Below, piece after piece: positions 2,515 through 38,895 of a DNA stretch of 64,000 nt (the stretch's first letter is position 1; each line of letters begins with the position of its first letter). Location of the stretch: positions 87,302,748-87,366,747 of the forward strand of contig NC_133935.1 in NCBI RefSeq assembly GCF_031877795.1, written 5' to 3'. The notes under the pieces were generated by a model. That model saw only the letters and a list, made by a program, of their open reading frames with translations, ran no database searches and had not been told where the DNA came from. A program made the position numbers and the translations under genes. This DNA is from Strix aluco. Its lineage: Eukaryota > Chordata > Aves > Strigiformes > Strigidae.

Positions 2515-2592
2515 GGTCCACGAGGGAAAAGAGGGAGAACTCAGCTCTGCCTCAGGGGACCCCCGGGCATGGACGGACAAAAAGGAGAAATG
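2515..2592 (+). CDS. Collagen exon, Gly-X-Y with a cysteine-bearing interruption
   Basis: The exon has 78 bases (26 codons), phase 0 at both ends, a CTCTCTAG acceptor and a GTCAGT donor. It reads GPR GKR GRT, then an interruption containing QLC, then GPP GMD GQK GEM. The cysteine inside the interruption is unusual for a triple helix; in type VII collagen a helix cysteine pairs with NC2 cysteines of a partner molecule. No other Gly-X-Y exon was seen upstream in the window. Confidence 0.72.
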
Positions 2593-5500
2593 GTCAGTAT
2601 GGGGTTGAGCTGGTCTCACTTCCCAGTGAAGTTCCTCACCGCTCTGCAGCAGCGCAGAGCTCTGCATTGGGGCTGGGGGTTGCATTTCTCAGCTCTCCAC
2701 ATTTTGCAACAACAAAAGCACAGAGAGCATTTTACTCCCAAGTGCCTACACTTCTGCCTGAAGGTTTCTCCAGCTGGGACAACTGCTGTGAGGCCTGTGG
2801 GCTGCCAGGTTTTTTATGTAAGACTTCTTTGGAAAATGTCATATTTTGGGCCAGCACGTCCTCAACTGTGCTTGCCGTGGCAGAGCAGGAGTAAAGCAAT
2901 ACTCAGAGCAGTACTTCAGTACAGAGGGACAAAGCTCAGCTTCTTCAGAGAATACAAACAAGAGCTCCATCTCAAGATCACAACCTGCAACCAACCCATG
3001 TTCCGGGTCAGTCCCTACACACTGCAGGTCCTGCCAACACTGACTCGTGGGCTTTTTGCATCAGGAGGTGGCATTGCATTAGCTCCATGTGTTAGTGGAG
3101 GGTAATGCGATTTCTCCTCACGCTCCAGCCCCTGTAAGTGAGCATGGATTGAGAAAAATGACCATTGCAGCTTTAATTTAGATCATTCTTCCTGTGCTCT
3201 TTTTCCTTTAATAGTTTAAAGTATTTTTAATCAACAGATCCAGTTTTCACCAGTTCTGAGTAGAAAATTTCTCAAGGTATTTTCTCCTAGGAAGCAGAAA
3301 GCCCTCTTTGCTTCATCTTTTCAGCACTGGGATCGCAATCCCAGTTGCAATCTTCGGCCTGGTCTGGTTCCCAGAGGTTCTCTGGAGGCCAGATCCTCTC
3401 CACACCTCCACCTCAGCCTTTGTGGTCCCTTACAAATTGCAAAGAAACCCAACTTGAACTGTAGCTGTTAACATCCTTATTGTTTGGATAAAGCAGAGCT
3501 CCCAAAATATATGGGAGCCGGCATCCAGCTCTCTGAGACACACTTTTGTTTGTGCTTTCTTGCATGTGGATGAGTCTGTTCCTCTCTCCTCAATGAGCTA
3601 CTCACAGATATCCCTAAAATTTATAGGAAAACATTTCTCCCCATCTCCCTTCCTAGCCTATCCTTTCCTCTCTAAAGTGCACTTATTCTTGGAGCATTTA
3701 ATGGTCAATCTACTGAGTTTTGTAATGACTTAAGCATTTTTAACAGGGTGAAAATGGTCCGGCTGGCCAGAAGGGAGAAAAGGGAGATCCTGGGCTTTCT
3801 GTGAGTACTTTAGACCAAGATCACATCCTATTACACAAGCCTGAATAGAGAAAATAGGGCAAACTGCCCCTGAGAGGTGTAGGGGAGGAGGGAAATGCTG
3901 AGAAACAGATTCATTCAGAGAATATCTGGGAAATGACAGTGTTGGCCATTACCCAGACACATCAGACATGCACAGGCTGGGGTGGGAGCAGTGCTGGGTT
4001 GTAGGATGCCAAGCCCAAACAACGACCCAGAGCCCGAGGCACATTTCCCTTCTCCCATCTTCCCCATGGTTCTTCAAACTCCTGCTTGGCAGATAGGATC
4101 AGTACCAATGCCCCAGGGCTGATCAAATACAAAGAAATAGCAGGAGAGAGAAATGTGCCCCATTTTCAAAGCAATTAGAGAGCTGGCATTACTGCAAAAG
4201 CTGCTGCTCTGGGTTTATAAATCCTGAAGAAGAAAGAGTGGTTGCAGCTCCCCTAACATTAGGGTCACCATCCTGTTGCATGAACAAATGTGTTTTGTGC
4301 CACTTTACTGATACGATCCAGTACTTTCATCCTTCCAGTGTGTGGAGGCCAGGCAGGATTAGTTTTAACATGGGTGTTATGGGCAAGGGCGCCCTATGCA
4401 TGGGCTGCTGAAGAGCCCAGCTCCCTATGTAGAAAGTGCCCCCAAATTTGTCATCCCTACAAAGGATAAGAGGTGGTGGCCACATGAAATGCAGTAGGAC
4501 ACCAACCATCACACGTGGAAGATGCTCAACTGAAACAGTGGCAGTTGGCTGGCCCAAGGGTGAAGGATAGACTCAAAATGCATGAGACCAGATGTCTCAT
4601 TCTGTGGGGAACAGCGTTACCTCGTAAAGAGGCAGAGAAGAACAAAATAAGGTGCAGCTATCTCTCATCTAAATCTAGTGCTACAGCCCATTTCCGTGGG
4701 TCAAGCCTGCAGTATAATAGCCCCTTTTTATGGATGCAGGTGGCTTGATGAAGCTTCTCAGAAGTAAGGGACATCTGAGAGGCCATGGCTTCAGGGACAG
4801 TGCCAAAAGGGTGGGGAGACTCATTGAAAAGCTAGCCTGGGGTTGAGGTATGCCATGGTCCTAATGTTGGGCTCCTCGTGGCAAGAGGAGCTGGCTACAG
4901 GATGGCCATGAATTTGCAAAGGGAATCATTTCCCTGATGAGCCACAAAGCTTGAACTGAGGTCCCTGTGATACCAAAAGTACATCTCTGATCTTGGCCAT
5001 ACCCAAGCTGAGGTGGTTTCACCAGAGGCTACCTCCCATGGGGCAAGAAGAGTTGGGATGGGGCACAGAGTGGGGAGAGATGGTGGTGGGGTAGAAAATC
5101 ACCACTAACCTCTGGTTTTCCCCCATGGCACAGGAGGAAGAGGTGAAGGAGGTGGTCAGGACCGAAATGAGAGGCAGATGCGGTAAGCCAGCTGGCGAGC
5201 CACGCTCGGGGCCACCGCTCTGACACCTGCCAGCAAATAAATTGGAGCAATTTGAGTGCCGGCACATGCTGGCTTGGCAGAGCAAATATCACCCCTAATA
5301 TCAAATATTAGCAGCAAGTGGAGACATGTCACCTCTCCATGCTCAGAGACGAGTGTGGGCTTCTGGGCCACGAGGTCTCTGTCATAGTCCTGACCTCCTA
5401 CTCAAACTCTTAATTTTTTCCCTTTAAACCCTCTCTCTTCCCATTTCTTCCCCTGTGGTTTTGTCAGCAAAGCTTACCACCCCAGTCATCTCTATTTCCC

Positions 5501-8500
5501 CACTCATTGGTGAAAGATGCTGGGTCATGGGGGAAAGTTTGGAGCTGCATTTTGCCTAATAACAACCTTTTAATTCCTGTCTACTTTGCGGCACTTCTTG
5601 ACACACAGACCTCTCCTCTCCAGCAGTGAATAACTGCCAACCAGCACCACAACAGTAACAAAAAATACCACATTTGGGGATGTTTTTACCCCAGAATCCT
5701 GACATTGCAAGGGTGTCAGGCTTTTGGGATCTTGCTTTCCTTGCCCTGTCCAGCTACATGAGGGCAAGAAGAGAGCTGCCCCACTCCTGCCCCACTCCCT
5801 GGGGCCTGCCTATGGCCAAGGAGGGTTGGGGTTCACCACCACTTGTGAAGATGCTTCAGCCATTAAGCTGGAGTCACACTCACGCCTAAAGATGTTAGGG
5901 GTCATTTGAATGCTTTGAAGAGGGGGAAAAAAGGATGAAAAATAGTCCATGAAAGCATGTGCTGCCTGTAAAAATAATGATTTTGTGGAAAAATCTTATT
6001 TACATAGAGAAAAAAGAAGTAGCAGACAAACTATGCCCTGTCTTATGTTTGCAGATTGTGGAGGTGAGTTGAGAAGGATGCTCATGGAAAGGGGTAAGGC
6101 TGCTAATATCAACACAGAAATACATGTGAATTCATGCAGTAGAGTAAAGGATGTTCTCCTTGCCCCAAAACATCCCGAAACTGCAAGTGAAAAGATATTA
6201 AGAATAAGTGGTTTCTTCTGTGATTCAGTGCAGCAAATGACCCTGGATCACTTACTGCTTTTAGACCCTGGCTCTGGCAGGGGGTGTTTCTTGAGAGGAA
6301 TTTGAGAAAACAGAGTTGAGAGGGACACCAAGAGGTCCCCTGGTTCCACCCTCTGCTGCAAGACAGGATCAAAGCTATTTCTGACACCCAGCTTTAAAGT
6401 TGCACCGATGGGAACACCCCTCCCTTCCCACGGAAAAGATCCTGTTGCTCCACCATCCCAAACTGTCAACGTTATAAGCTCCAGTGAGGTGCCTACAGTG
6501 CAGGTGTCTACTCATCATTTAAGCTCCTGTTGTGGAGATCTAATCCATACGGTCTACAGAGTGAAGGGCCAATCTGCCAACCCCAAGGCAGACCTTCATG
6601 TTCAGTCAGGGGCTCATCCTCTTCCTCAGTGCTTCAGGGAAGACTTGGTTCCTCCATGTCTTTGCCTACATGTGCGCAAGTGATTCAGGGTCTAGTTTTT
6701 CCACAGAAGATACTGAACCAAGTTCTGGATCTCAGCTGGCCATAGTAGGTTTTGAAGACACTCAGCTCACATGAAGGCACCTAGAGGAAAGTTTCCAACT
6801 CTGGATCTGATACTTATCCCTGGATGTTGATCTAGTTGCCCATATATAAGTCAGATTACTTATCCTGCTGGATCCTCTCTATGGGCACAGCTGTCTCATA
6901 GGTCTGTGTTGTATCTGTCAACCCAGCTTTGATGACTCAGTTGCCCTGGGACTTCTCATCTAACCTGAATGTTTCCTACTACATTTCAAGGCCATCATCA
7001 GACCTGGAACGGGTCCCTCACCACAGCTTGTTTTTAATGTTTTAAACAGGAATAGACAAAGGAGGAACTTCAGAGCAGCAATTTGACTCTAAATGGCAGT
7101 GAACTCATGTTCTCCAGGAATGGATTTGCTTTAATTTTTCCTTCATAACTGTTATATTTTTGGGGTTGTTTTTTTTTTTTAGCTTTCATAACAGACTGTT
7201 TCATAGTGTACGAAAGCGGAGCATTTTACAAAGCAAGGACTTTCTCAATAGAGAGTTGGGTCAAGAAGCAGCATCCTTGCCCTGGATGTAAGAAGCCAGT
7301 ACTGTTGTAGGTGCCTGGAGTAGCCGAGAACTCTATTGGTGTGGGATATTCCCAATTATGCTAGACATGAGATAGTCCTTTCTGAGCTCTGTTTCCCCTC
7401 CTGTTCTGTGTTTAGAAAGCAGATCTATCAGAGTAGAGATCATCTCTCCCTGATGTCTATTCATGGTCCCATACCTGGTATCCGGCCCTTGCCCCAGCCT
7501 CCATTTGCTTCTGTAATGTAAATAAATCAGAGCAAATGAATCCTGCACCATGAATGCTCTTGGACAGCAGCCTCCATGTTCCTGCAAAGGACAACCCTCG
7601 CTGAAGTGTTTTGCCTTCATGACTCAGGTGTTATCCAAGGGCCCTGCCTGTTATCTGGCTGGTCAATCCTTCAGCCAGGAGCATGTTGTCCTTTCCATTC
7701 CTCATGCTCAGAGAATCATTTAGATAAAAAGTAAGTTACCAAAGGAAAGCAAAGCCAGATCAAAACTACAGTGGACACACCACAGAGCATTAACCTGGGA
7801 CAGATTCAGTCTGCTGGTCCACATTGCTTCAAAACAGGTTTCTGGGTTAACTTTGCACTGCCACGCTCCACTAGATCTACTGTCTTCTACCTGCAAACTC
7901 TGTACATCCACCATAAAACTAGAATTCCTAAAATATCTGCTCTGCTAATGTATGGAGGATGATGGAGCCACAGCCTCACACACATCCAGACATACAGCTG
8001 GACACGCATAACTCAGCTAACTCCTTTTGTGGATTCCCAGCCTTTTAGTAAACAAGTCTTACCTGAGAAGACAGGCAGTGCTCAGCACTTCAGGGGACCT
8101 ATCTCATGGAGATGCTGATCCAGCAGCATTTAATTATCCGTGTAGTTTTGATTACAGCTCCATCCCAACTGACAGTGGGAACATGTCCATGCAGTCATGG
8201 AGGTCCCAAGGAAGCCTAGCACACTTCTTGGGACCCACTTCCTCAAAACCAGCTTTTACTCTGAATAAGTTTAGTGTATCCCCTGCTCCCTTCCTTGAAA
8301 AGACAGTAGACAGTACAATCTCTCCTTAATTGCTTGCCCTTCTCTAGAGTGTATGTGATTTGGAAATAGGTTTCCTACCTTGACCATGTACCCCAGTGGT
8401 CTGTACACTTTGGCCCTTGAAACATTGTGTTGTGACTTATCTCCCACACTGTGTTGTGCAGTGGCACTAATTTTGTTGAGCTGCAACCATTTATCGAAGC

Positions 8501-11500
8501 ATGGTGGCTTTCAAACTGTGGCACCAGATTTCATCCTCACTGACCCACTGATTAAATTCACAGGTCTGGAGGCAGCTGAAATCAACAGGCAGCTCCAAGG
8601 GTATTTTCAGCCTCAGGAATACACCAGAAGGGATGGTGAAAGGGAGGAAGAAATGCTTAACAAAACTCAGAGCATGACCACATTGGTGACTTCGGTGAAA
8701 CCCTTCGTGGAGACACTTTCACTTATTGCAGGTAAGTGCAGCTGCGTGGTTGCATGCTTTCCATCTTTCTAACTTTGGCAGCCACTCCGTGAACCCAGTG
8801 CTGCTGAATCCTCTTCCCTGGGACAGGGCAGAAATAAGGCAGTGATGGGATTTCCAAAAAGGGTTCCCATGCTGCGATGCCCCTGTGCTGAAAAGGTCTG
8901 GCCTGTGGCTCGGAGACAAGGTGAGCTGATGCCCCTGGAAGGGGCAGTGGGTGAGGAAAAAGCCAAATATGTGTGGCTTCTGTGATGATCACCACCTTCA
9001 AAAGGATGTGTTTTGAAAGGCTAGAAGGAGGCAGCATTTTTCAGGCTGATTTTGTCCCCGTCTCCCCACCATGTCCTTTGAAACTTCTAGTAAAACTTCC
9101 TACCAGCCAGAAATTGCATCTCTGAGACCAAACACTTGAGCTATTACAGACTATTTCTGCCCAGGGCCTCATAAACCCTTTAATGGGTGAAACTACTGAT
9201 TACAGCTAATGGGAAAAAAAAGGGCTCTATTTCTGTCCTTTTGTGTTGCCCAAGAGAAAGGGGAAGAGAGAAGGGCCAAGGTCCTGCCCTGAAAACACAT
9301 GTAATACCAACCTGCCAGTACACGAACACCAGTGAGTTTGTGACATCTCCTCACACTGCATCTACCTCTACACCAGGCAACTGGACAGGGCAAAAGCATG
9401 ATCCAAGACTGGCCATGCTTTTAGGTGTTATCAAGCTCACAGTAGGATCTTGAGCAGCGCTAGGCAGCCAAGATGCAACCATCATTTTTGGGGATGAAGG
9501 CTGATCAGCCATAGGGAGGTGAACTATGTCCTGCTGCTTTCCCATGGGCTGGAGGGAGGTTCATGAGCCACTCTGTAGGCACAGCCAATGGGGTGGTTCC
9601 CCAGGAGGCTCCCAGATCACTTTGGGATGCATTGGGACACAGTGTCCTGGTGGAAAAGCCCAGGAGATGAGCCCAATGGATACAGGGAAATCCATTAATT
9701 CCTGGCTGAGAATGGCCATCTTTCCAGGGAGAGGACAGGATGGGGCAGTTTTAGCTGCATTTCAGATCATCTACCCTTTCTTCTGACCGTGAACCACTGT
9801 AGTGAACATTACAGTGAGGAGAAATGCTTGGCCCAGCTTCATGCAGACCTGATGAGCAATACGGTCCCTTTGGCACGGAAGAGCTACCAGTCGGATATCC
9901 TTCTCCTGTCCCCATGGAATAATGGCTCATGGGTGGCTTTTCCAGGTTCTATGGGCCTGCCCGTCCCCTGAGATGCTGATGGAGGCAACAAGTAGCCTTT
10001 GACATGACTGGCTTCAGGAGTTTCCTGGTAGCTCTGCCCTAAATTTTAGCAGCAACCTGAAAATGACCTTCATCCAGAAGGATCCATATAAGCTGCCCTC
10101 CTCCAGCTCCATCACATCTTCAAATCCATGCCACAGCCACCCATGGACCCTCTGACCTCCTCATCAGGGCTTGGCTTTGAATCCTGATTTATAGGAGACA
10201 GAAAGTGAAAACATGATGCAGAAGGGCTGGGGGGGGTGGGATTATGGGCTTGCTTGTGGAGGGCTTTCTGCACTTCGTGCTCAAAGTCCAAACACACTGC
10301 AAGACAGGGCAGGACTCAAAAGGAGGGAGGGTTCAGACTCATTTCTTGCAATTCAGCAAGTCAGAAATTAAGATGTGGCTGCTCAGATTTTGTCACCAGG
10401 AGGAGGAGGGTAGGGTAGCATGGATGGAGCTGCCATTGACACAGGCAGGGGGACGGCATCAGTTCTTCATCTCAGAAAAAGGTACTTACAGAGCCAGATG
10501 CATCTCAGCAGGAGGGAGCCATCTAAAATGCAACATCCCGTGACCCTAAAACAGTCCTGCACAAATTCTTGTCCCCCAGCATGTATGGGGAAAAGCTTTC
10601 TGCAGACTGGCCATGCAGCAGCTGAGTGGCCAGTCAGCACAAAAGCTGGCCAGTCAACTCACCAGTTGACCCAGCACATGGGTTGGCCAACAGTCCTTCT
10701 TCTCTATAAATAATTTTTAAAAAATAATTACACCGCACTTCCATACTGAGCAAGACACCTCAATGTTCCATACTTTTATACTCCAAACCAGGTCTTAGCC
10801 CATACAAGCTATTAACCTATAGTTTATATGTGTTGACCTTTATTACCCATGATAGCCCTTTCCCAGAGCTTTGGGAAGAGTTCTAAGTCAAATCCATTGA
10901 CCATGATCTCCATTTTTCCCCCGTGTAATCTGCTAAGGACCGTACAAATCTCCCAAATCCAGCTAAGCCTAGAACCAGGCCCCAACCATCACTGCCTTCC
11001 TCTGCCCACCCCCAAGCACTCTGCTGATGTCTGTGTTGTACGTCGAAGACATCATCCATCTGGGTTTAAACTCACTTTATATTAAGGCAACATTTGGGAT
11101 CGGGGCAGTTTCAGATCGATGGGGCGTACCACATGTTATTGAATCACAGCTGCAGCCGTCTCCAGCCAACAATCCCATTAAAGCCCAGGTCTGAGGCAGG
11201 AGGGCTCATAAATCGCTCTGCTAAGTGATGAGTGCAGATAGGCGCTCTAAATGTTAACAGGATTCTGCAATCGGAGGGTTATTACTGCCAGATTACAATC
11301 GCTCCTGGCTCTTCAACGCTCACAGATTTACAAAACTCCGGCCTGACATTTATCTCCTGCAAACAACCACAAATACTTCCATTTTCTCTGACTAACACCC
11401 AACCTTTCCAACTGAGTTGTTTAACACCATTAAGAATTTTATTGCCGCCAGTTTCTCCCTCCCCTTGCTCTGTGACATTTATTAAGAGAACTTGTTAGCC

Positions 11501-12921
11501 GGCGGAAAGCCATGTAAGGCTCCAATGATCTATATTTAAATGGTGGCTAATTTGCTTGCATGCCCTCGTTACCTGTGATTTCCATTTGCTTCCCCAGCAG
11601 CTCCCCGGGCACGGCAGATAACGGGTCCCTCTCAGCACAAGCGCCGAGAAGTCCACAGTCAATTACCAGGTGAAATGCACTGAATTAAGTGACATTTAGG
11701 GAAGTCACTTCCTGGGTGGGAAGTGCTTTTTGGCATTGAGATCAAGGGGATGTAGCACTGAAAGAGTTACACTTGCCAGCAAACAGAGGCTCAAAACAGT
11801 AGTTTTGGACTTGGCTTAAAGCAGCTGCTTTTGCCCCAGGGAGTTGAGCTGGTCGTGAATAAACTGGAGGGTGTTTTCACCTGATCCAGTGTGGTTCAGC
11901 CCCACCAGTGAGAATCCCTCAGGCAACACCCCAAATACAACTACCCCTGCAAAGACACACACCCCCCAGAACCCTTGCAAAGGTCAGAGACCACCATGAT
12001 GGGCACCACAGGGGTGAACAGGGCCATGGAGAAACAAGGAACCTCGTGCTCATCCCACTATGGAAATCCACTGCCAGATGCGCCACCTTGGTCCTTGCTG
12101 TCTCCTTTGCTCTGTCAACCCCATTGCTTTGGGGTAAGGTGCTGACTGGGGGGCAGTGGGAGTCCCTGGACCAGCCCCACACATTTGCCCAGGGGAGAAT
12201 TGGGGTGGCAGAGTGTGGATTTTTCCCACCTGGGTCCAACACTCAATTGAGGGGGGTGTTTCCCTGCAGCCCCTTGCCTGCAGCCAATGGACGAGGGTTC
12301 CTGCCAGCACTACGCCCTGCTCTGGTATTACCATGCAGAGGCCAATGCCTGCCGGCCCTTCGTCTTTGGGGGATGCCGAGGGAACAGCAACCGCTTCGAA
12401 ACCAAGTGGAAATGTGAGCGGTGGTGCAAAACCTCAGCAGGTAAGGCAGCCCCTGAACCTTCCAACCCTCCTCTTCCTCTAACGAGGAGTGAGGTCAAAG
12501 CAGGAAAACCCATCCATGATCTGCCCACCTCCATTGCCTTATGGTGCCCCACCAGGACCAAGAGAGGACTTGGAGGAGTGCCTCTGGTTTGCAAGGTCTC
12601 GTCCCCCTCCCACTCCCAGCTCACTTTGGTCACCCCCAGCCCTTCCTAGGAGCTCCTGGACATCTCTCTTGGGACACATCCACTGATGGGATATGGGTGG
12701 ACCTGTGGGTGATGAGGAGGATCCACCTGAGCACCAGCACTGGGTCCTGATAGTTTGCACTCCTCGAGTTCAGTCATCTTGCACCTTCTGAGGGCTGAGG
12801 TTTGCAGGATTTTGGGAGCTAGTGCCCTCTGAACCCTGGACTGCTCCATCCAAGCATCTCTCTGGCATCTCCAGCCACCAAAGACCCCAGGCAGAGCCTG
12901 AAGCTGGTGGAGCTGCCCTAA
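2515..12921 (+). CDS. 3' part of a Kunitz-containing, type VII-like collagen gene (multi-exon)
   Basis: Coding exons read by eye are 2515-2592, 3747-3800, 5134-5182, 6055-6063, 8564-8731, 12270-12440 and 12875-12921; the 5' part lies before the window. All have AG/GT borders and the phases join (0, 0, then 1 throughout). The product runs Gly-X-Y repeats, a short charged helix, Cys-X-Cys, a 56-residue linker, one Kunitz domain and a short tail. COL7A1 ends in this order: its helix is followed by an RQEM-type helix, CAC, an acidic linker and a Kunitz domain. COL28A1 has a von Willebrand A domain between helix and Kunitz, and I see none here. A secreted trimeric matrix collagen, perhaps forming anchoring-fibril-like dimers, is inferred. 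UCN3 follows on the same strand. I cannot exclude that it is the only COL7A1 of this species rather than a paralogue. Confidence 0.8.
3747..3800 (+). CDS. Collagen 54-base Gly-X-Y exon
   Basis: This is a classical 54-base collagen exon encoding six perfect triplets, GEN GPA GQK GEK GDP GLS. It sits between a TTTTTAACAG acceptor and a GTGAGT donor, phase 0 at both ends. It is the last triple-helical exon. The GEKGD run is typical of helix-stabilising charge pairs. Confidence 0.9.
5134..5182 (+). CDS. Collagen exon: end of helix and start of the NC2-like domain
   Basis: The exon has 49 bases, an acceptor CACAG and a donor GTAAGC. It encodes EEEVKEVVRTEMRGRC plus one base of the next codon. The V-x-x-V-V-R-x-E-M pattern resembles the DDIRGFVRQEMSQHC stretch that follows the triple helix in human COL7A1. 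It ends in phase 1, so every later exon must start with two bases. Confidence 0.8.
6055..6063 (+). CDS. Candidate 9-base microexon (Asp-Cys-Gly) in the collagen gene
   Basis: Nine bases, ATTGTGGAG, lie between a good acceptor (pyrimidine-rich tract ending TTTGCAG) and a strong donor (GAG|GTGAGT). Read in phase 1 they add D-C-G and keep the frame, giving RC-DC-GG. This recreates the Cys-X-Cys of the COL7A1 NC2 domain. The splice sites and phase are seen; inclusion in mRNA is inferred. Exon skipping would also keep the frame. Confidence 0.5.
6305..7075 (-). repeat. Possible very old CR1 LINE remnants
   Basis: Two stretches (about 6305-6370 and 6955-7060) resemble the reverse complement of CR1 3' regions, with GAGGTCCCCTGGTTCCACCC and CATCTAACCTGAAT. 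The sequence between is too diverged to place. It lies in the intron after the microexon. Confidence 0.35.
8564..8731 (+). CDS. Collagen linker exon between the helix end and the Kunitz domain
   Basis: An open phase 1-1 exon of 168 bases (56 codons) has a TTCACAG acceptor and a perfect CAG|GTAAGT donor. The encoded linker is polar and charged, with a QPQEYTRRDGEREEEM stretch and no cysteine. Human COL7A1 has an acidic tyrosine-rich linker of similar length here, but I see no clear residue-by-residue match. It is supported by its open frame, its splice sites and its position. Confidence 0.65.
11090..11710. promoter_or_regulatory. Likely conserved non-coding element in the pre-Kunitz intron
   Basis: About 600 bases differ in texture from their surroundings. 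They contain many intact CpGs, homeodomain-type cores (ATTA, TAATTTGC, CCATTAAAG), an AT-rich TCTATATTTAAATGG segment, GATAA motifs and no long reading frame. Such composition is typical of deeply conserved enhancers. Conservation itself cannot be seen from one sequence. A target could be the collagen gene or UCN3 15-18 kb downstream. Confidence 0.4.
12270..12440 (+). CDS. Collagen exon encoding one complete Kunitz (BPTI) domain
   Basis: The exon has 171 bases, phase 1-1, a CCCTGCAG acceptor and a GTAAGG donor. Cysteine spacing is exactly canonical: C-x8-C-x15-C-x7-C-x12-C-x3-C. The FGGCRGNSNRF core and WYY segment are present. The residue after the second cysteine (the P1 site in inhibitors) is Gln, not Lys or Arg, so trypsin inhibition is unlikely and a structural role fits better. 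The PMDEGSC and CRPFVFGGC segments are closer to COL7A1 (PLDEGSC, CHPFVYGGC) than to COL28A1. Confidence 0.93.
12875..12921 (+). CDS. Candidate terminal exon of the collagen gene
   Basis: After a pyrimidine-rich acceptor (CTCTCTGGCATCTCCAG) two bases complete the split codon from the Kunitz exon. The frame then encodes ATKDPRQSLKLVELP and stops at TAA. Human COL7A1 also ends with a short polar tail after the Kunitz domain. The phase fits, but a different downstream exon could be used instead. Confidence 0.5.
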
Positions 12922-14600
12922 TCTAGACCAGATCATGAGCAGTCCCAAACACCCCTACATTGGGGTCATACCTCACCCAGGGTTCAATGGGAAAAACTCA
13001 CTCCTGGAAGCCCAGCTGGGCTCCCATTGCCAGATCTGAAGTCGTGGGGGTCAATCTGTGTAGCTTTTCCTCATCTCCAGGCATGTGGTAGCTCACCACA
13101 GGGGAAATAGGCTCTTGCTGAAACTGAAAGTAATGCAAACACTACTGCTGCCAAGCAGTGCACAAACTGTGGCTGAAACAAGCCTTCCTAGAAAGATGCT
13201 CCTCTCTCAGCCTTTCCTCTGCATGGGGACAACCCCTCCAGGCATCAGGAGAAATGCATTAATTCTCCACAATACATTAAAAAACACTCTGGTGAGATTC
13301 ATCTTTTCTGTTTTTGAAGGCATGTTAAAAAAGAGAAAGGCAGAGATCTATAATTTCAGGTTCATTTCAGAATTTTCAGGTGGTCTGTATTCTGTTGGGT
13401 GGTTTTTAGACAGGCACCTGTTATACATAAAATCAAAACCATTGCGCAGGCTGTCATCATCCACTTGAATCTTTCTGATATGCAATGGATTTTGCACAGC
13501 CCGGTCTTCCTGTTCTGCAAGGAAGAAGGCAGTGCAAATATTCAGTGCTCAAAGTCTAGTTTAGGACAGGCAGCACCATCCTGGAGAGCTGAAGTGCTCT
13601 CTCAGGAAAAGGAGTAGGCATTGCCTGGCCAGGATGGAGGGATTTGCTGCCCCAGTGCAGCCAGCCCAAACTGGGTGCCCTTTTCTCTTGCCCCTCGCCG
13701 CAAGGATTAGCATCACTCCTTGGGCTCTATGGGGAGCCCATCTTTGTTTGTTGACTGTAAGGACAGTCAAGGTAGACCAGCTGGCCCATTTAGCCAATGA
13801 CCACATTTGGTGGCCTGCTTCTTTGCAATGTACTGCATGAGGGAAAGCCACTCTCAGTGCTTTAAATCCAGTCCCAGCAGCACCAGGTAATAAGTGAACT
13901 TCTTCTCAGCCAACTCTTTACACCAGGGCATAAGCATTAAGAGATAGTGTAGGCTTCATAAAGCAGCTGTAGATCCCTCCAGCACTGTGTCTATACTCCC
14001 TTAATGGGAAGAAGAAACCACTGGGGAGTGGGAGTCATCCAAAACCAAGCCAGGTCCATTTGTGTACCCATTTCTCCTGGCTGACCCTAAATGGTGCCAG
14101 GAGCTGGCCCAGATCAGGACATTTGCTTTATGGATGTCTGATGTGTTGTGACATGACCTGGCATAGACAATCCCATGGTGTCAGTAACCTCCCAAGCCTC
14201 TGTGAGCATGAGAGGTCCAAGAAGAAGCCCAAGCTGCATTCAGTCTCCAATATCTGCTTTGTTTTCTCTTTCCTCACTTTTGAAAACCAGTCCGAGGGAG
14301 GTGATCAGCTGCAGTTGCCTTGTTTAAATCAAAGAGAAATGAAGCTGTGAGAAGTGTCTCCAGGACACCTTGGAGACTGGCCAAGCAAGACAAACCATTT
14401 AATGTGAAGAGGCAAGGGATGTTTGAAAAAAGATATTGGAAAACTGTAATTATGAGCAGGAAATAAAGTGGTATGAGGAGAAGGAAACATCTGATTGCCC
14501 AGGAAAGCAGAGATGTCCAGAGGCTCATGACTGCACCACTCACCCCATAGGACTACTGTGCAAAACCAGGCGACACATAACCCTGAGTTTATTTTTGTAA

Positions 14601-18660: not shown

Positions 18661-19119
18661 GGGTGGGGGAGACTTTTAGGGCTGAACTATTTGCTGGTGA
18701 GCCAGCTGCTTTCCAGGCGCAGGGAGCTGGGACTGCTCCAAACAGGGAGAAGCCAGAAGATTCCTGAACACACACTGGAAAAAGGCCTTAGAAAGCAAAG
18801 AACATTGCTACGAGTAGTCAGCCCCGAGCATGTGAAAAGCTGGGGCTTTAATGCACATAAAAACAGCTTCACAAATCCTTATGGAATTTGCAAAGGGCAG
18901 TTTTGGAGCACAAGTGATCCCATCACTCTTCTCATACAGATCACACAGCTCCAGAGCTGAGCCCGTGGAGCTGTATCTATGAATATACCTGCACCTATAG
19001 CTTGAGCACATCAGCCCCTTTGCAGGAGGGAGTTTCTTGTACATCCAGCCAGCAAAGTCTTGCAAGGAGGTGCAGAGACGAGAAACTTGCCTCATTGCGG
19101 CATCCGATGTCCACAGGCA

Positions 19120-19460
19120 GTTCCTTAGCAACCCTTACAAAAGAAAATGGATCACGAGAGATGAAGAGGCTGGGCCAGCGTAATTTAGTAATTTGATAAT
19201 AGTACTGTCCCTGAAATGGCCACCAGCACTGACAGCTGGGCCCTGAGCATCTTGCAGCGTCCTCTGGCTGTGCCCAGCAGATTGGAGCAGACAGGCTGTT
19301 TGGGAGGGAGCTAACAAAAGCCCCTGTCTTCTCTCCTGCCAGAGTCAAAAGGAACAGAAAAGTTCATCGTCACGTCACCATCCTGAATTGCGCTCAGCTA
19401 GGTTAATTAATTACACAGTATTTTTAGAGCAGGAGTAATTTAGGCTCTGGAGATGCTGTC
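19120..19460. promoter_or_regulatory. Enhancer-like island with paired homeodomain and CRE-like motifs
   Basis: It contains GTAATTTAGTAATTTGATAA, CGTCACGTCACC (CRE/E-box-like), GGTTAATTAATTACAC (palindromic homeodomain site) and GAGTAATTTAGG. The clustering is greater than in its flanks. Function is inferred. Confidence 0.35.
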
Positions 19461-22400
19461 GAGGCAAATGGCCATGAGTTAATGCAGGACTGGACCTGAG
19501 CACCACCAAGTCCATCTTGCAAAAGCCTCCACCACATCCTCGGGCTTGGGCTCTGTGGGAGCTGATGGAAGTTTGCATGCCATCCGCAGCACGTACCCTT
19601 TGGGGTGATATCTATAGCTTTTCAGAGCAATAGTAATCACTACATCACGGTGTTGGTATATACAGCTTCTTGCCAGTGTTGCTGGGAGGCTGCTGGAGAA
19701 CACTATTCCCTGCCCACTGCAAAGGCAGAATTGCAACCCAACAGCCACAGCACTCTTGAGAAGGAGGGAAAATGTTGAAAAAGCCTGAAAAACCTTCTGT
19801 GTCATGAAGGCAGCTCTGCTAGTCTGAGCTGGGACAAGTAGGAGCAAAAATCAGGATGGATTTTCCCCTGACATCATTGCCGTGTGGATTAGGAAGAAAG
19901 TCAAGGAGAAATTCTCCCCATCTGGGAGCCAGTGCTCCTGCGGGAGCTGCCTCAGGCTGTCCATTCTGCCCTATTTTGCACCCCAAACCACCCTAGTAAA
20001 TCCCATTTTATCCCCCAGGCTTCCTCTGGACAGCTCCTGGCCCATCCCCTGCCTTGGGCATCCCTCAGCCCAGCACCCTGAGTCCCACTGGTGAGCCCTG
20101 CATCCCCCACGTGTGTCCCACCCTGAAACCACGCCGAGCACCTCCCCATTGATCGTGAAGCCAAGGGGCCAACCCACAGCCATGATCCCAGTGGCAAAGC
20201 AATGCTGGAGGAGCACTATAACCCATCTGTAGGGAGGAAACCATCACATTTCTTGACCAGTGTTTCTCCCACCCACCTTGTCCACCTGCTGCAGCCTCAC
20301 CAGTGGGAGCAATCCCTGTTTATGGAGGCAGGAAAAAGGAGAAGCATCTCTTTTTATACTTCACTCTGTGGGGTATAAATAGATTTTATGTCGATCCACT
20401 GTCAGGATAAACACCCTGAGGCCAGTGCTGCTCCTGCACATGGATCCAAGATCCTGATGCTGCTTTTAGATTTTTTTCTTGATTTTAGATGTTTCCTTCC
20501 AACCGGAGATATGATGCCCATGTAACTGCAGGCACATACCATGTGTACAGGTAGGTGCAAACACCTCTTTGGAGAAGGGGTAGGAGGTGCAACAGAGAGA
20601 TAGCAGATAAAAACATTGAAGCAAATACTTGGGGAAGACAATTTGGAGTATTTAATATTATTTTTTCTTCACCATTGCTTTTTAATTTCTTTGGAGGGAA
20701 AGCATCAAGAACCAAGTTTTATTCCATGCCTGAAGGCTGTCAGGGGTGAAGTTGGTCTTTGGGTTTGGCCCAAGTGATTCTTGGAGAAGCATATGTAGCA
20801 ATCTGTAAAATAGCCCCAGCCCATTTTATCCCAAAGAGGCTTTCTGATGTTACATTTGCACCAAAAGCTCAAAGCAGAGCTAATTAATTGCCAGGAACAT
20901 GAAACACTGAAGGTGGGGTGGGTAACTGTTCCTTACAGGCAGCCAAGTGCTTTGCACATGACCAAGGCTGTAAATCCCCTGTGACCCTGCAGCAGCACCA
21001 AGAGACTCGGGGCCCAAGAAGGTGAAAAAAGGGCAAGAAAGGTAAAACAATAATTCAGCCCCTGCAGAACTAACAAACTCCATGTCCCTAGCCCTTCTCT
21101 TCCCTCTGCTGAGGTCCCAGCAAAAAGTGACAGGGATTTCCAGGCCCTCAGTGCCTGCTATATGGCTACCTTGGAGACACACAGGGACTTGCCGCTGCTG
21201 AGCTGTTGGAAGGAGTGAAAATCACGCCTAAAATGGGGTTATGGGGAAGAGAAACCCACCAAAAATCAACTTCATGGGAGAGGAAGGGCCATTTGCTGTA
21301 GGGTTACAGAGAGATGGGAGATGGGCAATCTCATATCACAGAGAGGTCCTCCTCCCTCGGCAGCCTTGAAAATGCAAATTGAGTCTTAGAGATTATTAAA
21401 GAAGGGACAAAGCAAACCAGAAAACTCCCTTCTGCCCCTCTGTGGACCTACAGTGCATCCATGTCCGACTCGTCTGTGCAATTCTGGTGCTGGAAGCAAT
21501 AAACGGGACCTCACATCTCATTGCTTTGCCTCCTCGGGCCAGACAAAACTTCTGTGCTGGTAATTGGGGCATGCTTTTTGCTTTCAAGGCACAAGTCACT
21601 GTGTCTTATTTTTCCCAGTAGTGGAATGGTTATAGTGATGAAACTTTAATAAGATCCTCTTCAGCTGCCCACATTTGAGCTTTAAACAATGATTCACAGA
21701 AGAAAATTGAGCTCGGCGAGAGCAAAAGAGGCTGCAAGAGGTGGGAAGGTGTCCTGCTCCCAAAGAGATGGACGCACAAGGGAGACGTGTGAAGATGCTC
21801 GTGACAAAGCCTGCATTTTTCATAAGTTTGGCAATTTTCAGCAAAACTTTTGGGAGTTTGAGTCCCCTCTGCCACTATCCATCTCCCATGGGTGCTCCAG
21901 GCCGTTGGTAGCAGAGCTCCCTCCTTCTTCAGGGTCAGCTGGGGTTATTTTCATACCGTGACATTTTCAGTTTTGCAGCAAAATCTCCTCTCCAATCCCC
22001 TGTGAAAGCAAAGACTGAACCAGGGATCTGCAAGCCACAGTAGCCAGCCAGTGACAGCTAAAACAGTCTGGTTTGCTTTTAAAGCAGACTGAGGGATGAA
22101 CCAGGCAGTTTGACTTCTTTCATATTTCTTTCTTAGGCGCTGCTTTCTCTTTCCTATTTTCTCCTAATAAAATCATCGTGAAGACTCCATGTCTGGCATG
22201 TGGATTTGCCTCCTGCAAGGACATCGTCCTGCACCAACTCTTCCCAACAGTAAAACGTTTAATGGCTAAATAAAACATATAAATACACCCTAGTATCTAC
22301 TCGGGAGATGGAGATGGGTTTCACCGCCTGGCTCCAGCAGTGATCTGCTGAATGACGGGAAACGTGTTCACCTCCATGCTCCAGCTTCTCTTTCAGATAG

Positions 22401-25400
22401 TTTTTGTCATCTGCAGGGAAAAAATAAAGAGTCACATTTACATGGGTCATTCTGGCAGCAGAATTGACTTTTGAGGAGGACGTATGTGTATACACCATTC
22501 CTTCAAATGTAGGGTGTGTTTAGGCTTGCTTTGATTGCTTTTTACCTTTGCAGCCACAGGGATGATCTGTCTTGAGTCTGGCTGCCCAGGGAAGCAGTTT
22601 GTTAAACATTAAGTCCCTCTCTGCCTTTAGTCTGCTCTTGTGCCTTAGTCCCCTGAGACCTTTGAGATCCACTGCCACCCAATTCAGCCAAGTGGGGTGA
22701 GGTTCAACCCCAAGTGTGAATGCAGACCCATGGTAGAGGTGGGTAACTGCCCTTGTCAACCTCCTGTGCGAGGCTGCAGCTGTAGCTGCAGACACTGAAG
22801 AGCCTATCAGGGTCCTACAGAACCTCCTGGCATGTGGGTCAGCCCTTTCCCAGCATCCCCAAGACATCTCATTGCAGCCACCAGCCAGGAAGGGCTGAAC
22901 ACTCCACTTCCAACCATTCAGAGCATACGCAACCCATGGGAACAGACTGAAGCAGCTGCAATGGATAAAAACTACCTGCTCACACCTTCTCCCCGCATCA
23001 CACACACTCTCTTCTCAACCCCAGGAAAGCTTCAGTGAGAGAGGACCACCACCCCACCACAAGGGATGGGATGGTTGCAAAGGTGGATGCAGCTAAATAG
23101 ACCTTATCCCTTCCCAACCTACAGTCTTCATGTAGTTTAATTCACTTTGGAGGTTCATTGAAAGAAGTTAAAGACCTCATCTCCTCTTGGAGACAGTGGG
23201 CTTTAGGATGGCTTAAATAATCTACTTTGACATCACATCTTTTCCTAAACTACATTCCCTTCCCCAGGTATCTGAATCACACGTTCCCCATGATTTTGGC
23301 AATAGCAGGGCTTCAGGTTTGGCCTGGAGACCTGAAACTCCTGGACGTGACCAGGGACACCAGGTCCTTGCATCAGAGGGGTGCACCAGGCCTTGATCTC
23401 TGGGTACCAGCTTTGTCCTACCTTTGCGGCCAGGGATGCCAGACCCATGCCCCTTGCCAGAAGCAATAACCTTTCCACATCTTTTACATTCCCTGGCTGA
23501 TGTCCTCTGAGCAGGTGACAACTGAGTCCAAAATGCCACCGGAGGTATTTTCAGTGGCTCCCTTGGCCCTTTTAAAGTGCTCCTCAACCCCAACAGGATG
23601 TGATGCCAGGGCACAGAATGGACACATGCCTCACTGGTAGGCAGAGAAGGACCCGCTTTCTGAGTGCCCACACACCTTTCATGAAGCACCTGTTGGCCAG
23701 GTCAGCACCCAGAGCTTCCATCCCACATGTATTTATGTGTTCAACCCCCTTCTTCTATCCCCAGACCAACAAAATCAGGGGACGTGAGTCCCTAACCTGC
23801 TCTGAAGCATGCAGGGCTGTCAGTGGTCTGAACCAAACAGGGTCCAAGGGTCTCCTGAGCTTCCTGCAAGGACCACAGTCAACATCTGCAGCCCTCAGGG
23901 AGCAAAAGGATGCAAAACCCATCTCTCCAAGGAGGAATGATGGGAGAGAAATACTATCAAAGCCCTCACTGTCCACCCTAGGCACAAAGCTTCATGAAGT
24001 GGGTATCACACTACTTCCATGGGTAGTCAAACCTGGATTGAGTCAAACCTAGGTGGAGATTAGCATCACCCAAGGAAGTGCATATATTTGAAAAAGCTGG
24101 TTAGATACCTCCTGCCAAGCTTCAGACCTTGCCCTGCGATGTCCCCTAGTCCACCAACACTAATTAAGCTACCGGGTAATGGCGCTGGCTCAAGCCCTTC
24201 TTAATCCATGGAGGTCAAGGAAAGGCAGGACACAAACCAAGCAGGGGGAATCCAAAGGTTGCTGAGAATCAGCACTCACGCATCCACAACAAGCACAAAG
24301 GGAAATAATTTTTAATGGACCTCCGCTGCGGGGAACAGGTTGGAAATAGCTCTCATCTATCACTGCTTCCTCACTGCAGAGCAAGAGCTGAAGGGCTTCA
24401 TCAGCTCCAGGGACCACGCAGCCCTTAGAGAAAGCTCTTCCCTCTGCAATAAATGAGCCCACAAGCGTTTGCCAGAGGGAGAGGAGAGAAGACTGCAGGC
24501 TAGATGGTGATTTCCCTTGCTCTTGCTGGGAAGAAGTCCCACTAATGGAGTTTCCCACCCGGCTCTTTGCGTTGAAGTCTGCAAGCAGGTTTGCTTGCCC
24601 AAAAATACTTCAACAGGCTCCAAAGATTTGGATAACCAAACCGCCCTCCAGGACTCAGCGAAGAAGAGGAAAAGAAAATATCAGTCCAGGAGATGAAAAC
24701 TTCAAATGAAAATGAAAGAGGAGTGAATTGCTGGAGCAGTCGATCCGGACGTGTCTCAGCCAACAGCTGGAGGTGATTAAGGTTGAAAACGCTCTACCCA
24801 GGACTGAAGCCAAAGGGGAGCTCTCAACATTACTGGCCACTGCCTCTCGGGCAGTGGCCAGCAACTTCACAGGCTGGGTGAGAAGCTCAAAGATGCTCAT
24901 CTAAGAATATCCACAGTCATGGCTCCTCTTCTTCAAAGGAACAGGTGTGACCATTGCTGGTGCATGGCCCGGGAGCAAGAACATCTCCCCATCCTAACTC
25001 AGAGCCTAACCAGGGTCGCAACTGGCTGCTGTTACCTTTTGTGGGGTTGTTCAGAGGATTTTCCCCACTTTTGGCAGGATTTGTCCCTTCCCAGGGATAC
25101 CTGCAACCCACCAGCTCTTTGCTAGAGGAAGGTGGCAATGGCATTTCCAAGCAGGTTTCAGAGGAGCTCTGATAAGCAGGCCAGGCCAAGCAGGGTCCTG
25201 GGGCCACCAGGAGCCCCCAGCCCAGCCACAAATCTGTGGTGTCCATTGTCCACCAGCAACCTGACTCCTTTGGGTGTCTCAGCTTGGGATCCCATGGAGA
25301 AATGCCTGTTTCCAGCAGGGAAATCTCCATCCCCATCCTTTTTGTAGCACTTCTGGGCTACTAGACGTGCCCAGAAGGAACCCTCTCTCTGACCACACCA

Positions 25401-26039
25401 GGACCAGAGTGGTCCTGGGAACTAAGATTTGGGGTTTGAGTTCCTGGCTGCTCTCTTGGAGCAATTTGAGTTAATTTTGCTGGACCTCAGTGGGTTTGGG
25501 AAGCTTGAAGGGGTTTTTTTCAAGACACACTTTATCCCTACCTCCGTTCTGCACCTGGGACAGTGCTACCATATCCTGGAAAGACTTTCCCAAAATTTCA
25601 ATCTTCCAGGAGTTTTCCTGCTTACATGAGAGGACAAAAGCACCCAGAGATGGGAAACCAGACAGAGGGCAGAGCACTGTGAGTGAGGCAAGCCTGTCCC
25701 TGCTGCAGATGGGATTTAGGAGCACTGGCCCAGGGCAAAACCCTGCCAAGGTGCTGCACCAGCCCCACTCTTCAAATAGAAACATGTTAATTGGGATAAC
25801 ACTGTTAATCAATGCTGAAAACCCCAACAGGCATCCTTAGGGGACATGAAAACCTTTGCATTTAAAATATTCTTGCACCAAGTGCCTGGCTACCTGGAGA
25901 AGCAGGGGAAAAACCTGTCTGCATGACCCTGCAAAGTCCCGGCGTTGGCGACAGCCCCATTTTCAGGTGACTCTCACCAGGCTGTTGGGTTCAGACGTCT
26001 TTTTCCCCCCGCCCCTCCTTTTTTTCTTTCTGAATGGGG

Positions 26040-26190
26040 AGAGGCACCGCAGCCCCATGACGTTGCCAGCTCCCTCTGATTTCATTTTAATGAAATCATG
26101 CCCAAATGAAGGCTCCACGTCTGGAGTTACGACTCCAACCCCGTGATCGCTCATTTTTATATATACACGAGGGAGGGGAAAAGCGTTTCC
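26040..26190 (+). promoter_or_regulatory. UCN3: UCN3 proximal promoter
   Basis: A TATATA box lies at about 26158-26165 in TTTTTATATATACAC. Upstream are a CRE-like TGACGT (26058-26063) and a perfect 9-base inverted repeat GATTTCATT/AATGAAATC (26078-26097). The block precedes a non-coding exon with a strong donor, matching the two-exon UCN3 layout of mammals. The transcription start is inferred at about 26190. Confidence 0.6.
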
Positions 26191-26335
26191 ATAGAGAGAA
26201 AAAATATCACAGTCCTCTTAATAACAATAAAAGAAAAGCGAGGGTGCTGAAGTTCAGGGGAACGCGCCTGATGCCTCTCTCCTCGGAGTGAGACCGCAGC
26301 AACCCCTTCCCATCCCGACCAACGAGGACTACGAG
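26190..26335 (+). other. UCN3: UCN3 exon 1 (5' untranslated), inferred
   Basis: The exon would start about 25-30 bases after the TATA box and end at ACGAG|GTGAGT (donor at 26336). It has no useful open frame. Mammalian UCN3 also has a non-coding first exon and keeps the whole precursor in exon 2. Confidence 0.55.
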
Positions 26336-29300
26336 GTGAGTGCCTGGATTTCATTTATTAACCAGCAGACGGCTTCATTTGCACAAACTTTAAATATTTC
26401 AGTGCTTTCCTTGGGAGATCAGGTTCCACGTTTCTCTGCAAGAAAAAAAAAAAAAAAAAAAGGCAGGAGAGGGATTAGCAGTTCAAAATATTGTGTTAAA
26501 AGGCTCCCCCCACACTCCCTCTGAAGGAAAGAAATCTCTTTTTTATTATTATACCAATTTGGGGAGGCAGATGAGGCTGGGCAGCATGGGAAGGGTTTGG
26601 AAATCTTGGGAAATCAAAAAGTAGGGATACAAATCACTGCTGTGGTTAAAGGGATGGGGAGGAGAGGAGGGCACAGCCCCATCCCCACCGGCTCAGCTTC
26701 AATTTTGGAGCCCTGGGAATCAGCATCGTCAGGAGAGATTCATTAGGAAAGCGGAGGCGGCATGAGGCAGAAAGAGTTTTAAAAGTCTACGGGTCTCATC
26801 CACAGTATTATTTTATTTGAGACTTACTTTTTGACGGAGAAAAATTAGCTTAATCCAGCTCTTCTGCTGCCAAGGAGCCCGTGATAACCAGCAAATAGCT
26901 TTGTCCCCAGTTTGCAGAGCTGCCTTGCCAGAGCGATTGACTTTTCTCTTTTAAAGGCGAGAGGCAGATCTTCAGCCGATACAAATGGTCCTGCCGTGGC
27001 TCTCGGCACCATCTCAATATAATGCCTGCAATTTCTCACGGGTATCGGGGCAATTTCCACCAGCAGGAATGGCACCTGCAGGTCACCCTCCAGCAGCCGC
27101 AGATTTAACTCTGACTCCTCAGATCTGCCGCAGGTGGTTTTTCTTCTTTTCCTGCTTTTTCTGGGAGGGGAGGAAAACCCAATTCCAGGTTGCTTTCTGG
27201 ACCAAAAAAAACTTTCTGGCATGCCAGGACACAAAACCCCCACGCAAAAAAAAAAAAAATTAAAAAAAAAATCAGCTTTTGTTTTCCACCAGCACAGCTG
27301 GATGCTGTATTTTTTTGCTGCTTTGCCTTGATTTTTGCTTTTTTTGTCAGGATATCGACCCCACAGCCAAAGACCAGGAATCCAGGTGCTGGGTGCGGAT
27401 GTGTTTCAGCCACATTTCCCCCTTGCTGTGCCTTTCCCCTCACTCAGCCGAGGTCCCCCAAGAGTTTTGCTAAACAGAAAAAGCCCGAGCTGGCCATGGG
27501 GCCAAGCCACCCATTTCAGACAGTCATGAAACAGATTTTTGAGGAGAGGCAAAGTGGAGATGCTGCTCTGCAGCTCTGGAGAGGGCAGTGGCAGCTCGAA
27601 ACAGCTCAGCACTCTCTCACCAGCTGTGCCGGCTCTGCGAGGGCTTTCAAAGATTTTCCCATTCTCCATCCAGCAGCGTGGGGCCAAACAGTGTCCCCCA
27701 GGAGAGCACAGGCTGCGGGCAGCGGTGAGAAATTTAGATTTCTAAATTCATACCCCCAGCCCCCCCATCCTGCTAGCAGGGGCTGCAATGAGTTTGCTGT
27801 GGGGGTGCTGCTTCCTCTGCGGCTGAAAGGCAGCTGCAAAGGGGGAGATTTTGGGGCAGAAGAAAGATGTTTGTCCTCTTAAGCTTTTGCAAGCAAAAAC
27901 TGAGTCCCAGGATTTAAAGGAATGATTCAGGGCTAAAGGAAGGAGAGTTTTGAGCCCCGAATTGCCCTCACATGGGAGTTGTGTGCCTCAGAAGGATTTT
28001 CCATCCCCATCCTATAGTGACAACTTTGCTGGCACTGCCTGGGTCATGCCACGGCTGGTGCACATTCCTCCTCTCTCGTCTGGATGCAGGGCAGAGTTGA
28101 GGGGACAGTTGTTGCCTGGGGGAGCTCTGTGGGGTTTTGTGCAGGGGCAAGTGAGGCAAAGAAGTGGAAATTGAGCAGCTCCCTCAAATCCTGCCTGTAC
28201 AATTTACCCAAATCTCCCCCTCTGAGGGACAACAAAGGGCAGAGTTAAGGTGACCCAAGTTTCAGGGACAGTGGCTCAGTGGCAGAAGAGCAGGTCCAGG
28301 GTGAGAGCTCCTGGGGACAAGGGGGTTGATCTGGTTCTGGATCAGTCTGAGGACATCTCCCCCACCCAGCAGCCCCTCGTGCAGCGAGGCACAGCCTCCA
28401 TCCTCAGCGGTAGCCCCAAGACACAGACATCCATGGAGACTCGCAGGAGCCATCCCGCTCTGCAAGAGTTTCCCAGGGGACTCCCCCAGCCTCCTTAGCC
28501 CCTCCACGCTCCCAAACCCATGGAAAATAAATTAGCAGCTCACGACCCCAAATCAACGCTTTAACCCCAGTCCCAGGTGGGGTCCCGCACCCCTGGAGAC
28601 TGTCCCCCAGCCAGAGCTTGCCGTATGATGCATTTGCCACAAGATGGGGCCCGAAGGTTGGGAATGCCAGCTTGCCTCCAAGTACCTGGAGGGTCCTTCT
28701 GCCCTCGGGGCTGGCCCTGGGGACACTTGTCTGACCTCGACATGGGCAAAGACCCCCACCGGGAGATCCCTTGTGGCCTTTTTGGTGGTCTTTTTGAGCG
28801 GTCGGGTGGGTGTACAGAGAAATGTGTCGCTTCCCAGAGACAGGACTCAGAGACCGGGAGGTTCTGCAGACCATGAGGGTTATCCCAAGGTTTTCAGCCC
28901 CCCGCAAGACCCCAGAATGCCTGTATTTCAAGCAGGGAAGTATGCTGTTGTGCTGAGATTTTGTAGGTGCCCCCAGATCCCCAGGCAAGGCTGTCCATAA
29001 GGGGACTGCGCCCCAAATGTGCCATCAGATGGGGCAGCCTGTCCTGAACCCAGAGTGGAGGGGGGTCCTGGGGATGGAGCCATGAGGTAATGGGCAACCC
29101 TGCAGCATCCAATGTCAGGGCTGGAGAGGGAACATGGGGCCATCACACTGGATGGGTGGCAGATCACCCCTCCAGCACTGGGGCTGATTTTCCCCCACTC
29201 TCCATGCCCTTTTCAGACAGAGTTGTGTGAGAAGGTGGACAGGCAATTTCTGGCTTCAAAGAGAACAGAAACATCTCTGGTGGCTTCAGGCTGACCAGAG

Positions 29301-29800
29301 AGGAGCTGAAAGGAAAACCCACCTTTACAGCAGCTGGTGGTACCCATGGTTACTCTGTGGAGGTGTTAGCAAGGTGGAGAGGGCTGCATGGGGGCTGCAA
29401 CAGGATTTCCCCAGGCAAGGAGGTACCCACAGTAGAAACCAGCTCTCCTGCAGCAAGCACTTGTGTTTCAGCAAAGGAATGGCCAAATTCTCCCCTTCAT
29501 GGAGGCTGCAGTCTTGCCAAGCACCTTGGACATCCCACCTCCCATCCAGCACCCCAAAAACAAGGGCTGGGGGGATGCACCTCGCAGCAGGAGGCCCCAA
29601 GACAACTCATTCCCACCTGCCCTAACAATTAGATCGGACCTGGGGGTGGACCTGGGAGGTGAAGCCAAGAGCGCAGGACCTGGAAGATGAACCCAGGTCC
29701 ATGGGATGTGGGAGGGTGGGGGGATGATGATGCTCTGCCCCAGGGCCCACAGGAAGCTCATGCCCATCTCTGCCTCCCCCTCACTCTTTCCACTGGGCAG
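26336..29800 (+). other. UCN3: UCN3 intron 1
   Basis: A 3.5 kb intron lies between the inferred exon 1 donor and the CACTGGGCAG acceptor at 29791-29800. It holds poly-A runs at 26443-26461 and 27246-27272 and several long but unconvincing ORFs. Confidence 0.5.
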
Positions 29801-29809
29801 GCCACCACA

Positions 29810-30280
29810 ATGCCCCACGCCAGGCTGCTGCTTCTCCTCGCCCTCCTCTGTGCTGCAGAGACTGGCCGAGCTTTCCGCCTCTACAACACCGCCTCCATCT
29901 TCAGCTGCCTCAACGCGGCCCTCGCTGAAGCCCAAAAGAGCCACCCAGAGGAAAATGCCATCTTGGACAAGCGTGGCTTTGATTCCCCATCACCGGAGGA
30001 GGCGTCTGAGGAGGAAGAGGGGGAGGACACAGTGGATGAAGAGATGGGGAAAAGGACGTTCCCAGGGGAAGGCCATTACAAATATGTGTCCCAGGCACAG
30101 GTGAAAGGGAAGACATACCAAAACCGGGCCAAGAGCGATCGCCGCACCAAGGTCACCCTCTCCCTTGACGTCCCCACCAACATCATGAACATCCTCTTCA
30201 ACATCGCCAAAGCCAAGAACTTGCGGGCAAAGGCTGCTGCCAATGCGCATCTCATGGCCCAAATCGGGCGGCGGAAGTGA
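29810..30280 (+). CDS. UCN3: Urocortin 3 precursor
   Basis: A single coding exon encodes 156 residues (human about 161). Residues 1-20 form a signal peptide ([20 protein letters not shown]). A conserved [11 protein letters not shown] block is near residue 31, and an acidic spacer (about 63-80) is followed by KR. The YKYVSQAQ block precedes RRTK at about 111-114, then the mature peptide of 38 residues starts at [13 protein letters not shown] and ends HLMAQI, followed by GRRK for amidation and cleavage. The peptide is a CRF-family hormone selective for CRF receptor 2 (known for the family). The start has a good context (GCCACCACAATGC) ten bases after the acceptor. Human starts FTLSLD; here Val replaces Phe. 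The neighbours are as in other vertebrates. Confidence 0.97.

Positions 30281-34884: not shown

Positions 34885-38895
<4,011 letters not shown>

Follow-up and report, generated by a model that had tools for sequence, protein, structure and literature searches.

The 64,000-nt stretch of DNA analysed here (the window; contig C5:87302748-87366747 of a searched genome of 1.41 Gb in 202 contigs, probably that of a bird judging by gene content and repeats) contains the 3′ part of a collagen gene of ~102 kb that looks intact; UCN3 lies 17 kb beyond its Kunitz exon on the same strand, in agreement with an earlier note on this DNA that had read the locus as a type VII-like collagen and then UCN3. Window coordinates are used throughout, with negative numbers denoting positions upstream on contig C5, and the features are collected in Table 1. 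Gly-X-Y exons extend upstream as far as -59.7 kb, and with a custom protein-to-genome spliced aligner and splice-site checks we followed NC1 exons on to -89.9 kb. The model reads, in order, a signal peptide, a vWA domain, seven FN3 domains, a second vWA domain, an interrupted Gly-X-Y helix, an NC2 motif and a Kunitz domain, and Pfam assigned two VWA and seven fn3 domains to the assembled NC1 product. The 23 NC1 exons are all phase-consistent, from the signal-peptide exon (-89923..-89854) through the end of vWA2 at -61881; a 38.6-kb scan for the signal-peptide exon gave two candidates, which were nested start codons sharing one donor, and the 5′ half of FN3-1b was trimmed by three bases in the final NC1 model. 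We infer from its frame only that a 132-nt exon (-61390..-61259) joins vWA2 to the helix. The helix model comprises 50 exons (46 from an exon-chaining script after two had been dropped, and four added by inspection) and 905 residues. Base 2515 opens the 78-nt helix exon, the border reading cttcctctctag followed by GGTCC..., and base 30280 closes the UCN3 stop codon. The cysteine of the 49-nt NC2 exon is presumably the counterpart of human Cys2802 (human row provisional). No consistent exons were obtained for the NC2 linker: the two spliced alignments contradicted each other, and the single hit of a motif scan was irrelevant. A final exon carrying the stop codon was not found either.

Table 1. 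Collagen and urocortin features, in window coordinates unless a contig is given
Feature	Position	Strand	Remarks
Type VII-like collagen gene, 3′ part	1..12440	+	Start 89.9 kb before the window, C5 about 87212825; traced to the Kunitz exon
Helix exon, 78 nt	2515..2592	+	Imperfect Gly-X-Y with a cysteine, GPRGKRGRTQLCLRGPPGMDGQKGEM; length equals that of the C11 COL7A1 counterpart
Last helix exon, 54 nt	3747..3800	+	GENGPAGQKGEKGDPGLS; length equals that of the C11 COL7A1 counterpart
NC2 exon, 49 nt	5134..5182	+	EEEVKEVVRTEMRGRC, cysteine motif; matches TEDEIRTFVRQEMNQHC of C11
NC2 linker	5183..12269	+	Two reference proteins gave conflicting, implausibly small exons
Kunitz exon	12270..12440	+	Weak acceptor, strong donor; Pfam PF00014, E = 7.3e-19
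UCN3 coding region, single coding exon	29810..30280	+	One of five CRF-family matches in the genome
UCN2	C11:13885978-13886085	-	CRF-family match

The five CRF-family matches fall on contigs C1, C3, C5, C11 and C17 and, judged by their peptides, are CRH (C1), UCN1 (C3), UCN3 (C5), UCN2 (C11) and CRH2 (C17). Within 30 kb upstream of UCN2, and on its strand, lies a full set of Gly-X-Y exons with a Kunitz exon, and within the next 10 kb upstream lie the vWA1 and first FN3 exons. The NC1 of this gene aligned with that of a provisional human COL7A1 sequence, with 594 identities among 1202 aligned residues, and its vWA2 matched the solved mouse collagen VII vWA2 (6s4c; E = 1.4e-40, with the first letter of the query mistyped), on which grounds we identify it as COL7A1, ~4 kb from UCN2 on the same strand. 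This provisional human sequence, used here and below, was checked only by its fit to the C11 gene and to mouse 6s4c. In human, COL7A1 and UCN2 lie at 3p21. The two human genes are neighbours, separated by less than 20 kb (PMC5834868). The earlier note had proposed checking whether this same genome also has COL7A1 next to UCN2, and it does; because it does, the possibility that the window gene is the only COL7A1, moved here by rearrangement, is ruled out. The C11 model carries an extra FN3 (1b) after FN3-1, without counterpart in the provisional human sequence, and seemingly lacks human FN3-5.

We searched the genome with individual domains of the window gene. The Kunitz domain gave 27 matches, namely itself (100%), C11 COL7A1 (58%, 2.4e-18) and then others from 49% downwards, while the vWA1 exon gave three: apart from itself, these were C11 COL7A1, with E = 0.032, and, with E = 0.079, a C6 locus taken here for COL28A1; E values so weak indicate that vWA1 has diverged strongly. 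In a Kunitz tree of this genome with the provisional human sequence, a narrower form of the NC2-Kunitz tree of birds, reptiles, fish and mammals suggested in the earlier note, the window gene, C11 COL7A1 and human COL7A1 formed a clade with support of 97 against four other genomic Kunitz domains, which places the window gene with COL7A1 and not with the COL28/COL6 type. An ordered alignment of the helix exons of the window gene and C11 COL7A1, scored so as to favour equal lengths, produced 45 pairs, 39 of them equal in length, and scored 1719 against 841 ± 55 (maximum 985.5) in 100 shuffled exon orders. The last 21 helix exons, where no alignment choice enters, have equal lengths at 21 of 21 positions (36 to 126 nt), with residue identity of 224/436, or 81/293 where the position is not glycine in both genes, and a further run of seven equal-length exons lies farther upstream. 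Directly behind the second cysteine of the Kunitz domain, presumably at P1, stands Gln in the window gene (12270-12440) and on C11 (C11:13890033-13890191) and Thr in the provisional human sequence, none of them basic.

The window gene thus shows the vWA-FN3-vWA head, Kunitz grouping, helix exon pattern and NC2 cysteine of the type VII family, but lacks features of a COL7A1 orthologue, namely grouping with human at the closeness of C11, adjacency to UCN2 and the helix Cys2634. It resembles COL7A1 (C11 and human) in its vWA-FN3s-vWA head, interrupted helix, C-terminal exon lengths, NC2 cysteine motif and Kunitz domain, and in having a same-strand UCN2/UCN3 hormone as the next gene, whereas it differs from the C11 COL7A1 model in FN3 count (seven versus nine), in gene length (about 102 kb versus about 29 kb) and in its neighbour (UCN3 versus UCN2). 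On domain layout, Kunitz clade and exon lengths, the second type VII-like collagen that the earlier note had postulated therefore exists in this genome alongside COL7A1 on C11. We consider it highly probable that this is a further type VII collagen gene, apparently intact and paralogous to COL7A1, whose 2R ohnologue it most likely represents. An ancestral same-strand pair of collagen VII, a skin-anchoring collagen, and urocortin 2/3, a stress hormone, would have been copied with its chromosome in a whole-genome doubling, leaving COL7A1-UCN2 (C11; human 3p21) and the window gene with UCN3 (C5) as its descendants; the collagen copy at human 10p15 would have been lost.

The age of the split was assessed in trees rooted by using the two vWA domains, with three FN3 domains on each side, as mutual outgroups. 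Both domain halves gave (window gene,(C11,human)) with support of 99 and 100, and with the provisional human row the duplication thus appears to predate the bird-mammal split. A very improbable alternative is that COL7A1 was copied later, within the sauropsid or bird lineage, and that this copy came to lie beside UCN3 by chance or block copying and then evolved fast. Such a copy would make the window gene sister to C11 COL7A1, a grouping rejected by the AU test (P = 0.0012 for both halves, 0.0091 for half A and 0.0003 for half B; under WAG+F+I+G4, 5.6e-5, 0.0044 and 0.0007, respectively) but retained by the SH test where it is confined to half A (P = 0.15, or 0.085 under the other model) and recovered at 55 in the Kunitz tree of 52-55 residues. 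FN3-1b, which both local genes carry and the provisional human sequence lacks, would by itself suit a sauropsid duplication; under the tree above it would have been lost on the human side. The site patterns tell against a recent copy: among 935 gap-free NC1 columns, 238 are alike in all three sequences, 299 differ in all, and the pairwise-only sites number 242 for C11 and human, 82 for the window gene and C11, and 74 for the window gene and human (provisional human sequence). A copy made on the bird line would have more sites in common with C11, and this is scarcely so (82 versus 74), which speaks against a bird-line duplication. Nor would a late copy readily account for a neighbour that is UCN3, the very paralogue of UCN2, or for the occurrence of ITIH and PFKFB on the same two contigs. 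Support for C11 and human vWA1 was lower in a vWA-only tree (59, or 67 with an added outgroup). In an FN3-only tree the FN3-2, 3, 6 and 7 positions were not recovered as clades: FN3-3 and FN3-6 of the window gene grouped together (81), and its FN3-7 grouped with FN3-6 of C11 (68). As positions are mixed in this way, some of the FN3 pairings may be in error, and the placement of the window gene may also be affected by long-branch attraction to the root.

The surroundings of the two pairs were compared through PFKFB and ITIH, the only two families tested, picked from the human map and without a control family. A PFKFB search gave 14 matches, falling on C5 (85.02 Mb), C11 (18.54 Mb) and C25, and a search with the ITIH C-terminal domain gave 10, on C5 (84.36 and 84.44 Mb) and C11 (17.97 Mb). 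The PFKFB neighbourhood invoked in the earlier note was therefore borne out in that both contigs carry the family, but not as close proximity, the distance between the collagen-urocortin pair and the nearest PFKFB being 2.3 Mb on C5 and 4.7 Mb on C11. Its central proposal, common descent from one collagen-urocortin pair, is supported by the pair on C11, by the rooted tree and by the presence of PFKFB and ITIH on C5 and C11. UCN2 and UCN3 have been described as a pair dating from the two rounds of genome doubling early in vertebrate history (2R; PMC7406891), and a word search of that paper gave no mention of collagen. Very improbable, too, is an older split with hidden paralogy, in which the collagens would have diverged earlier than 2R, by tandem duplication for example, with each urocortin-bearing copy then losing a different one; the deep divergence and long branches would fit such a history, but it requires extra losses, and no third collagen VII Kunitz domain appeared among the 27 genome matches.

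That the window gene is a decaying pseudogene is very unlikely. The shorter helix, the seemingly reduced hinge, the weak Kunitz acceptor and the NC2 linker and last exon that were not found would agree with decay, but no stop occurs in the 5919 nt of the 73 exons modelled for NC1 and helix, 71 of these exons have AG..GT borders (the other two being one with a GC donor and one first exon), and the 23 NC1 exons are in phase. Because the exons were picked to be open, the stop-free reading is only partly independent, and it speaks for consistency more than it gives proof. COL28A1 and COL6A3 have vWA and Kunitz domains in common with the window gene, but are not known to have an FN3 array between two vWA domains, and their Kunitz domains fall in another clade. 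The chance that the window collagen is COL28A1 or another vWA-Kunitz collagen is negligible, for although the domain kinds are the same and the third-best match to its vWA1 exon was the COL28-like C6 locus (the name being ours), COL28A1 is ruled out by the Kunitz clade with COL7A1 (97), the seven FN3 between two vWA domains and the exon-length fingerprint. Two COL28-like Kunitz domains (C6:22754973 and C1:132074294) share 62% identity; there may be two genes of COL28 type in this genome.

Taking the window gene as a 2R ohnologue of COL7A1, we compared the two paralogues. MIDAS motifs bind metal. In vWA1 the first such motif, DxSxS, reads DGSSS in C11 and human COL7A1 (provisional human sequence) and GQSQG in the window gene, which also has SLKT in place of NTRT. 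In vWA2 the window gene has DESSS and NTKT, and the motif is lost in C11 (HGTRD), the provisional human sequence (HATQD) and mouse 6s4c (HATRD). By these residues, each paralogue keeps one full MIDAS motif, in opposite vWA domains, and a metal-dependent ligand site would be expected in vWA2 of the window gene, replacing that of vWA1. The mouse vWA2 has been reported to bind type I collagen, laminin-332 and integrins (PMC7137805). The helix residues found number 905 in the window gene versus 1527 in C11, with about the middle missing in the former; no perfect Gly-X-Y exon of at least 36 nt was found from -38.0 to -25.4 kb. A 42-nt exon, ISSLENIITLKGDK, at -40039..-39998 was left unpaired by the exon alignment with C11, and judged by eye the hinge, about 39 residues in COL7A1, seems reduced to it. 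The equivalent of human Cys2634 is absent from the matching 54-nt exon, and the only helix cysteine of the window gene lies in the exon at 2515-2592.

By its anatomy and by what is known of collagen VII, the product of the window gene would be a secreted homotrimer. Its NC1 head (vWA, seven FN3, vWA) would bind basement-membrane and stromal partners, its Gly-X-Y helix would form the rod, and its NC2 end, with the conserved cysteine motif and Kunitz domain, would drive antiparallel dimers and hence a linker of the anchoring-fibril type. Collagen VII dimers are described as antiparallel, formed via NC2 and fixed by disulfides (PMC8172798, PMC7760980). With 905 versus 1527 residues found and a seemingly reduced hinge, the rod is expected to be shorter and stiffer than that of COL7A1, and a changed disulfide set is expected, the Cys2634 equivalent being absent and a cysteine newly placed in the exon at 2515-2592. 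We tentatively suggest, as a reading about as open to doubt as to belief and perhaps slightly more so, that after the doubling the paralogues split the head between them, MIDAS being kept in vWA1 of COL7A1 and in vWA2 of the window gene, and that the latter also lost its mid-rod and came to carry a different set of cysteines. On this view sauropsids would possess two types of anchoring fibril, differing in length, stiffness and ligands, and mammals one.

Collagen VII, on which dystrophic epidermolysis bullosa and autoimmunity depend in human, is regarded as the product of a single gene. A preserved second sauropsid gene would offer a natural comparison of which collagen VII parts are needed, and the mammalian collagen-urocortin neighbourhood would be explained as a relic of genome doubling. 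Chick collagen VII data may mix two genes, for example in a report on the inner limiting membrane that PMC4692387 cites. Among the papers listed in searches of the PMC literature, three of which contain both COL7A1 and UCN3, none has a title on a collagen VII paralogue beside UCN3. The symbol col7a1l appears for zebrafish (PMC9456529, PMC8608873) and denotes, by its name, a second gene of collagen VII type. The window gene may already stand in the genome annotation as a collagen VII-like gene.

Downstream of UCN3, the window contains two alpha-tubulin-like genes in inverted, head-to-head arrangement, at 36606-38865 (+) and 44088-47486 (-), at what we take, from the human map, to be the TUBAL3 position. 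Their last coding exons show 98.3-98.4% identity over about 960 bp, and among the inverted matches listed no other was longer than 150 bp, a pattern suggestive of gene conversion. Further tubulin-like fragments, of low identity and with shifting frames, lie at 33039-33180 (-) and 58986-59476 (+).
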